From Clostridia bacterium (lineage in GTDB: Bacteria > Bacillota > Clostridia > Oscillospirales > CAG-272), in assembly GCA_017508195.1 (NCBI GenBank), contig JAFVZL010000043.1:1-33656 (forward strand): a DNA stretch of 33,656 nt, in the 5' to 3' direction. The position numbers and the translations under genes were made by a program. Positions 66 through 548 of the stretch are shown here, in pieces. Position 1 is the stretch's first letter. Every line of letters begins with the position of its first letter. The notes beneath the pieces were generated by a model. It was not told the DNA's origin. It saw only the letters and a program-made list of their open reading frames with translations, and did no database searches.

Positions 66-141
66 GCGCCCTTAGCTCAGTGGATAGAGTGCCCGGCTAC
101 GAACCGGTAGGTCGAAGGTTCGAATCCTCCAGGGCGCGCCA
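66..141 (+). tRNA. tRNA-Arg (ACG)
   Basis: A complete cloverleaf is visible: acceptor GCGCCCT pairs with AGGGCGC, the anticodon stem CCCGG/CCGGT closes the loop CTACGAA (anticodon ACG), and the T arm is GAAGG-TTCGAAT-CCTCC. CCA is encoded at 139-141. This isoacceptor normally has A34 deaminated to inosine by TadA and reads CGU/CGC/CGA. An intrinsic terminator follows four bases after CCA. The last 22 nt (120-141) together with that terminator are repeated twice more downstream. Confidence 0.96.
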
Positions 142-267
142 TTTAAACGTCCGAACTTGATCGGGCGTTTTTTGTGTCATGGGGGATTCGAAGGGGAAGC
201 GGTACAGAACGATAGTCCAGTGGACTATCGTGACCGCGGAAGACCGAGCGCGTAGTTCGCGCGAGAA
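120..267 (+). repeat. tRNA-tail tandem repeat, unit 1 (148 bp)
   Basis: The unit starts at the second base of the tRNA-Arg T-loop. In order it holds the 3' 22 nt of the tRNA with CCA, the terminator hairpin (145-173), an inverted imperfect copy of the T-arm (GGGGGATTCGA at 181-191, pairing with 120-130), a 23-bp near-perfect palindrome (209-231) nested in a GCGGT/ACCGC stem (199-203 with 233-237), and a small GCGCG/CGCGC hairpin (248-262). Positions 120-255 match 268-403 with only two differences, both in the terminator loop (T to C at 156, A to C at 160). No coding capacity is credible. The repetition is directly visible, but its origin is unknown. Confidence 0.9.
145..173 (+). terminator. 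Intrinsic terminator of the tRNA-Gly/tRNA-Arg unit
   Basis: A 10-bp stem AAACGTCCGA/TCGGGCGTTT (one G-U pair) with loop ACTTGA, followed by a T-run. It lies directly after the encoded CCA of tRNA-Arg. Confidence 0.92.
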
Positions 268-292
268 TCGAATCCTCCAGGGCGCGCCATTT

Positions 293-321
293 AAACGTCC
301 GAACCTGCTCGGGCGTTTTTT
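293..321 (+). terminator. Duplicated terminator in repeat unit 2
   Basis: The same 10-bp stem as the tRNA-Arg terminator with loop ACCTGC, followed by the same T-run. It would catch read-through from the first terminator. Confidence 0.85.
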
Positions 322-403
322 GTGTCATGGGGGATTCGAAGGGGAAGCGGTACAGAACGATAGTCCAGTGGACTATCGTGACCGCGGAAGACCGAGCGCG
401 TAG

Positions 404-480
404 CGTTAACGGCACGAGGGTCTAAGAAAACAACACAGTGCGTTGTTTCCCCCCGAGTGTGACCGAGCCGCAGCGAGAAG
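404..480 (+). repeat. 77-bp insert specific to unit 2
   Basis: This stretch is absent from unit 1. It has its own inverted repeat (AACAAC/GTTGTT around ACAGTGC). It ends with GACCGAGCCGCAGCGAGAAG, an imperfect echo of the GACCGAGCGCGTAG that precedes it (390-403). That suggests it arose by duplication and divergence inside the spacer, or was inserted between two similar GACCGAGC sequences. No ORF or known element is recognised. Confidence 0.6.
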
Positions 481-492
481 TTCGCGCGAGAA

Positions 493-548
493 TCGAATCC
501 TCCAGGGCGCGCCATTTAAACGTCCGAACTTGATCGGGCGTTTTTTGT
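493..548 (+). repeat. tRNA-tail tandem repeat, unit 3 (partial, 56 bp)
   Basis: A third copy of the tRNA-Arg 3' end (493-514) and terminator (518-546). It is identical to the first copy, including the ACTTGA loop, and diverges at 549, just after the T-run. It has no downstream palindrome. The yqeG promoter begins 22 bases later. The array therefore ends in a tRNA-tail copy on both sides, as a set of direct repeats bounding two spacers would. Confidence 0.88.
518..546 (+). terminator. Duplicated terminator in repeat unit 3
   Basis: Identical to the first copy of the stem, loop ACTTGA and T-run. It isolates the tRNA unit from the yqeG promoter 25 bases downstream. Confidence 0.85.

Follow-up and report, generated by a model that had tools for sequence, protein, structure and literature searches.

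The window, a 33,656-nucleotide stretch of a Clostridia bacterium genome, carries behind its tRNA-Arg(ACG) gene a tandem array of repeats that probably consists of two palindromic cassettes that are anchored to the tRNA and belong to the tyrT/RtT kind, with REP-like cores and with ends tailored by template switching, and that is probably mainly selfish or near-neutral. Arrangements of the same grammar but with unrelated sequences stand behind most tRNA clusters of this one Clostridia genome, suggesting a general process at bacterial tRNA 3' ends. No description of such arrays in Clostridia was found in the literature covered by our search, which left most subscription papers outside.

The array lies at the very start of its contig (C33). 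Exact copies of the 22-mer TCGAATCCTCCAGGGCGCGCCA (hereafter x) begin at 120, 268 and 493, and the same terminator stands behind each of them, just as a first-pass annotation had noticed for the part of the tRNA gene from the T-loop to the CCA (120-141). Its inventory of repeats was sound for these direct copies and overlooked inverted copies of the T-arm side (TGGGGGATTCGA, hereafter x'), which follow the first two terminators at 180-191 and 328-339. The array thus reads x - terminator - x' - core A - x - terminator - x' - core A (with module B nested in it) - x - terminator (Table 1). Unit 1 (120-267) is 148 bases long and unit 2 (268-492) 225 bases; the two align over all 148 positions with two mismatches, both in the terminator loop, and unit 2 has in addition a single 77-base insert at 402-478. 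The third copy equals the first over 56 bases, counted from the T-loop onward, and TRF scores the array 554 with a period of 148 bases. The right edge of core A falls directly before tRNA position 55, and on its left x' ends at the matching base. The model R1 of the core, which was built with this copy included, scores the core A at 192..267 at 97.5 bits, and folding of 120-560 gave a z score of -7.3 against 100 shuffles. As the copies differ among themselves, simple assembly collapse does not explain the array, and we rejected it as a source. The first-pass statement that the spacer holds no ORF was nearly right: a minus-strand frame of 90 aa (143-415) runs across the repeats and has no Pfam match. 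The gene downstream of the array, at 630, has a Pfam HAD_2 match and belongs to the HAD family; we take it to be yqeG-like.

Table 1. Features of the array behind tRNA-Arg(ACG) in the window.
Feature	Position	Strand	Basis
tRNA-Arg(ACG), encoded CCA, host gene	66..141	+	ARAGORN; Rfam RF00005, 60.5 bits
x copy 1 (tRNA positions 55-76, within the tRNA gene)	120..141	+	exact 22-mer
terminator copy 1 with linkers	142..179	+	hairpin then T run; identity to the other copies
x', inverted tRNA T-arm side	180..191	+	inverted repeat; same spot across the family
core A, with arm 1 palindrome 209-231 and arm 2 hairpin 248-262	192..267	+	profile match; covariation
x copy 2	268..289	+	exact 22-mer
terminator copy 2, 2 mismatches to copy 1	290..327	+	alignment
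x', second copy	328..339	+	inverted repeat
core A of unit 2, split by module B	340..492	+	alignment
module B, 77-base palindromic repeat in the arm 2 loop	402..478	+	ends ambiguous by 2 bases (AG)
x copy 3	493..514	+	exact 22-mer
terminator copy 3	515..548	+	alignment

The repeat is part of a family. The first-pass annotation had held that a repeat occurring nowhere else would speak for a single local duplication; the family is present at other loci of the genome, in the genus and in the order. The window unit has relatives at several places of its own genome and matches at E 0.01 or better in 31/59 genomes, the source genome (G000) included, some of them matched by the tRNA-Arg tail or module B alone. 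The grammar common to the loci is x - terminator or linker - x' - palindromic core - x. Among loci fetched by similarity to the window, which are therefore no random sample, a profile of core A found 48 distinct matches at E 0.01 or better. A tRNA gene is present in the same fetched locus for 34 of these, always upstream and 21 to 418 bases off (Trp, Val, Lys, Arg, Met, Gly, Pro, Leu, Ser, Asp, Glu and Ala tRNAs), and the remaining 14 are found dispersed or at the ends of contigs. All 31 core A matches with E <1e-4 and at most 450 bases from a tRNA have the identical orientation.

The ends of the units mostly follow the tRNA beside which they stand. For the right end, x, the adjacent tRNA was the best of 214 tRNA ends in 18 of the 23 core-A units. 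Of the five exceptions, two have an altered or short end (L004, L002), two miss first place narrowly (L224, L008) and the fifth is L090. For the left end, x', which is shorter, the adjacent tRNA ranked first in 5/25 units and within the top nine of the 214 in 19/25, ties ignored. The x copies begin at tRNA position 55 in most A units; the right-hand breakpoint is T54|T55 in this clade and about A58/A59 in E. coli. Many units stand, by eye, behind a terminator, and the terminators flanking a unit are unequal in L005, L022, L024, L049 and L090. Two operon-internal units (L260, L032) have no terminator, x' being barely visible in L260, so that x'-core-x is the constant part.

Across the order, a covariance model of core A matched in 63/295 genomes and 35/148 genera, figures that take in tRNA-linked and dispersed forms alike and thus are no count of tRNA arrays. 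From these matches 29 loci were fetched and two (L326, L330) dropped as misplaced at contig ends; among the 27 judged, eight matches lie at most 75 bases downstream of a tRNA, 8/8 in the same orientation, and for many others the stretch that was fetched contains no tRNA. Core A belongs to a covarying palindromic family that is also present away from tRNA genes. All named records that match the core exactly are MAGs, 9/11 of them labelled ruminant gut Clostridia. Module B also occurs elsewhere without a nearby tRNA; it often starts with GTAGCG, and core A with AGGGG or AGTAGG. A GTAG-style consensus pattern of module B had 0 matches in the window, even with three mismatches, because the window's own copy departs from the consensus. 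At two tRNA-Leu loci (L121, L133) an extra palindromic module is seen by eye in the tip of core A arm 1, and hairpin tips may thus be favoured nesting places.

The frequency of such copies was measured with an own-end test, in which the last 23 bases of a tRNA were compared with the 400 bases downstream, direct or inverted, and a copy was called when it scored at least 12 and above every other tRNA end of the same genome. In the source genome, 19/28 cluster-final tRNAs had an own-end copy downstream (12 direct, 9 inverted, some both). The count was 7/24 in a genome of the same genus (G028), 6/27 in G117 (6/32 usable genes) and 0/21 in a complete genome of another family (G043). Upstream, the same test found none in any of them (0/33 in G000, 0/30 in G028, 0/29 in G117, 0/31 in G043). 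Among 29 loci sampled from 29 other Clostridia genomes, 2/31 were positive (2/100 usable genes; upstream 0/97); both are tRNA-Lys loci with terminator, x', core and x, and the repeated terminator is visible in one of the two.

Other repeats and breaks were seen around tRNA genes. In the source genome, a tRNA gene lies no more than ~330 bases from the end of contigs C23, C34, C37, C38, C47 and C54, which is what arrays that break assemblies would lead one to expect. Short-hairpin arrays of another repeat type, with spacer words such as TATATCATC, GATTCCATA or TTTCATC, stand at L119, L120, L124 and other tRNA flanks. The Gut-1 RNA model (RF01706; gathering score 50) matched several hundred bases behind the tRNA units in two loci, above that score in L040 (2198-2272, +, 55.3 bits) and below it in L005 (2121-2185, -, 46.6 bits); near the L005 match, short hairpins with the word ATTTCATC follow one another, and Gut-1 may therefore be such a repeat.

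At tRNA-Arg(ACG) itself, related genomes differ. In G007 no unit stands behind the tRNA, and the next gene downstream is the one found in the window, which makes this a true empty site; the other genomes lack that downstream gene there, and for these the comparison covers the tRNA alone. Within 480 bases of the tRNA, G003 and G014 have no copy. Three more partial x copies stand within 700 bases in G029, and G023 has two that are degenerate, with the terminator repeated each time and a degenerate x' (by eye); neither array has a core-A profile match. In G050, of another family, the tRNA is followed by one unit with an A-like core. Like arrangements with different cores thus occur at the same tRNA. 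The first-pass suggestion of small non-coding elements between tRNA-end direct repeats stands to this extent, that units vary among genomes and occupy many tRNA loci; its reading of the repeats as att-like integrase sites is not supported. At the tRNA-Arg(ACG) of G028 (L184), a terminator and x' are found with no core or second x in 480 bases, possibly a half-made or decayed unit.

Two cases bear on movement. The first is L090, where tRNA-Glu(CTC) is separated from its own terminator by a 156-base cassette with the ends of tRNA-Ser(CGA), and the orthologous site of the source genome (L119, same downstream gene) is without it. Compared with L119, this insertion (n=1) has CCA repeats at both flanks and runs from CCA to CCA, not from the T-loop; no donor copy was found in that partial genome, and it is the one example of whole-cassette movement between tRNA types. 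The second case is the A+B composite of window unit 2, which recurs with one difference at a tRNA-Lys locus (L002): the shared stretch begins in the middle of core A and stops just short of the first tRNA-specific base, and the left half and both ends differ. As judged from comparison of the sites, this precise cassette insertion and this shared core composite show apparent movement of cores and of whole cassettes between tRNA loci. Natural pairs of empty and occupied sites, pairs of E. coli strains among them, offer direct tests of the origin, movement and effect of the units.

We propose the following explanation. Each cassette would run from a terminator through x' and the core to x, the final 22 bases of the tRNA gene, and with x and a terminator on both sides it could be gained or lost at no cost to the tRNA. 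The length of the array would most likely change by recombination or slippage between the direct repeats of x plus terminator. Unequal recombination, an option already raised in the first-pass annotation, fits the steps of 0, 1 or 2 units at E. coli lysQ; unit-sized copy steps are shown there and inferred for the window array. The cores may belong to a family of REP-like palindromic repeats whose copies nest in the tips of hairpins. The match of x' and x to each new host tRNA would come from hairpin-mediated template switching at replication (a small inverted triplication, DUP-INV-DUP), probably followed by copying between x and x'. Background to such events includes the SbcCD argument and, reportedly, work on tandem-inversion duplications in Salmonella. 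The array would then be a by-product tolerated by tRNA loci, with a possible secondary use as RNA. Several findings stand against parts of this proposal. Template switching predicts equal flanking terminators, yet they are unequal at the five loci named above and missing from the two operon-internal units. The rank of x', first in only 5/25 units, the E. coli inverted copy that is visible by eye only and the single example of whole-cassette movement also count against it, and neutral insertion into a palindrome leaves the constant orientation (31/31) unexplained. Template switching alone explains neither the unequal terminators at single units nor the fixed orientation, and no mobilising enzyme was identified.

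A broader version of the proposal can be put forward only tentatively. Gene-less mobile cassettes might be widespread at tRNA 3' ends, the element re-tailoring x and x' to each host tRNA, folding shut and leaving the tRNA intact; RtT might then be a domesticated or relic branch, and the driver a trans-acting activity of the replication or HUH type.

The structure of the core bears on whether the unit is kept as RNA or as DNA. Statistics on the core helices were taken from 20 of the 23 full-length cores, three near-duplicates being left out. The helices are paired in 96.3% of 356 cells, and slid controls fall to 22-44%. Both sides changed in 11/18 pairs, with 40 cells carrying double changes; in 500 shuffles, four of five covariation measures were reached by 0/500 and the fifth by 1. 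In the same 20 cores, the closing stem of x' and x is paired in 162/180 cells, with two-sided changes, and since x' is a partial reverse complement of x, x'-core-x can close into a three-armed hairpin. Such strong covariation, together with the fixed orientation to the tRNA (31/31), would be accounted for by a selected RNA, with x'-core-x an RtT-like small RNA cut from the tRNA transcript and serving, for example, in the stringent response or to shield tRNA 3' ends; tRNA operons are indeed the source of the RtT sRNAs of E. coli and Pasteurellaceae, two of which Northern blots have shown (PMC4986893). We nevertheless consider this rather unlikely. Only 3 of the 343 paired core cells are G-U and 40 are double-changed, as in the upkeep of a DNA palindrome; this combination suggests upkeep at the DNA level, for example by hairpin-templated correction. 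Moreover, species differ in the core at the same tRNA, many units sit after a terminator (by eye) and, in E. coli, 23/40 spread rows have no RtT under the match and 3/7 fetched strains are empty. The only Rfam matches of the window at gathering score are two tRNAs, with nothing convincing at E up to 5, and a known RNA was set aside.

We likewise give a low probability to another alternative, in which a RAYT or other Y1 (HUH) transposase, by chance directed at the palindromes of tRNA T-arms, moves the unit as an element of the REP/REPIN type. The cores are dispersed too, palindromic and nested in hairpin tips, and module B often begins with GTAGCG, like GTAG-tagged REPs (PMC3733652). The same source reports GTAG REPs in Proteobacteria, Cyanobacteria, Chloroflexi and the PVC group, and its text contains neither the word Firmicutes nor the word Clostridi. 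This alternative leaves the tailored ends unexplained. Furthermore, none of 30 Y1 loci in 19/59 genomes (two of the loci in the source genome, itself about 88% complete) has core-like ends, the best blastn E being 0.31, and a Y1- or RAYT-driven element was rejected on these loci for want of shared ends. The source genome has two open Y1_Tnp transposase genes (L055, L070), presumably IS200-like, whose ends are unrelated to the cores.

Integration at the tRNA T-loop forms known classes, and the first-pass annotation had raised the possibility of very small elements between att-like repeats, taken here as satellite mini-elements integrated there by a tyrosine recombinase. This reading agrees with the right-hand boundary, which in most A units falls within the T-loop (position 55), with the restoration of a tRNA end by each unit, and with known T-loop attB sites such as that of phage Ms6 (PMC1762012). 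It is very improbable all the same. An integrase does not lead one to expect the inverted x', ends tailored to many different tRNAs or breakpoints that depend on the lineage, and the sole resolved insertion runs from CCA to CCA; on the insertion, the inverted copy and the tailored ends we rejected it as the best reading. Pfam gave no integrase among the ten window frames tested. The phage and plasmid rows listed (the best 20 of 533 phage and 20 of 237 plasmid records) match the tRNA gene plus at most ten bases, reaching at most query 1-86, and the exact pattern had 0 matches in viral contigs. A viral or plasmid origin was likewise rejected, as the query is not covered to 80% by any record. At tRNA genes, repeats and breaks in the assembly, like certain 'att' remnants, need not signal integrated elements. 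Finally, the window array by itself looks like one local tandem duplication affecting the 3' region of the tRNA and having no wider meaning, but this can hardly be the explanation, given own-end copies at 19/28 loci, cores common to different tRNAs and inverted copies.

Among known systems, integrative elements in tRNA genes also have direct repeats of the tRNA 3' end and regenerate the tRNA (PMC4383910). The units differ from them in being about 150 bases long and without a gene, and in having an inverted copy and ends that depend on the host tRNA. Small inverted triplications (SIT/ODIRA), described in cancer and yeast genomes and tested for elimination in E. coli, have the order DUP-INV-DUP with average lengths of 148/160/148 bp and a spacer (PMC13334657). 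Identical duplicated flanks of this form fit the window, L040, L122 and E. coli lysQ, and the five loci with unequal terminators differ; the units depart from SIT in having a conserved core at the centre of the inversion, and in that terminators around single units often differ. REP and REPIN sequences are, like the cores, small, non-coding, palindromic, dispersed and clustered, with variable stems (PMC3733652), and module B and the dispersed relatives of core A are dispersed short palindromes in many copies. What sets the cores apart is that they have tRNA-linked copies with tRNA-derived ends, that no link to a RAYT was found in the 30 Y1 loci, and that G-U pairs are few in them, GT pairing being often observed in GTAG REPs (PMC3733652).

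The closest comparison is with the tyrT/RtT repeats, a described family of similar anatomy, where the first-pass annotation knew of none that matched. These repeats, reportedly the subject of a 1978 paper, have long been a curiosity of enteric bacteria. Read in the same way, E. coli tyrT shows a tRNA end, a short inverted piece, a hairpin core and a tRNA end. In nine K-12 regions, direct own-end copies stand downstream of 11/39 tRNA genes (Tyr, Arg, Lys), which is no genome-wide rate as the operons were chosen by hand; the inverted copy was first-ranked in 0/39 genes by the own-end test and is visible by eye only. The own-end test used for the Clostridia genomes, run on 23 distinct E. coli genes, gave 3 positives downstream and 2/23 upstream, the latter being expected from tandem operons. 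The Rfam RtT model matches E. coli tyrT, lysQ and the lys spacers; its matches to the arg spacers stay below gathering score. At lysQ, seven strains picked from 40 spread rows (RtT under the match in 17, none in 23) complement K-12: the number of units is 0 in L216, L219 and L220 (3/7 empty), 1 in K-12, L217, L221 and L222, and 2 in L218. L217 and L216 differ by exactly 156 bases, and in L222 a small deletion takes out the inverted piece.

The RtT unit (RF00391), like that of the window, lies downstream of a tRNA and closes with a copy of the tRNA 3' end. The E. coli tyrT/RtT units consist of the last 18-19 bases of the tRNA and a hairpin-rich core in one orientation, as in the grammar of the window, with core motifs common to Tyr, Lys and Arg loci and, by eye, a short inverted piece before the core; lysQ in addition shares with the window a duplicated terminator. 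The RF00391 model has no match in the window at gathering score, nor at E up to 5 for 110-620. In the window's clade, the boundary is at tRNA position 55 and not at about 58-59, the inverted copy is longer and clearer, more tRNA loci are affected than in the K-12 sample, and different cores stand at the same tRNA in related species, cores being dispersed as well. Altogether, we judge the array to be a variant of the tyrT/RtT kind. The two are similar in anatomy and show no sequence relation that could be detected; the present kind is much more widespread in its genome, and there is evidence of movement.
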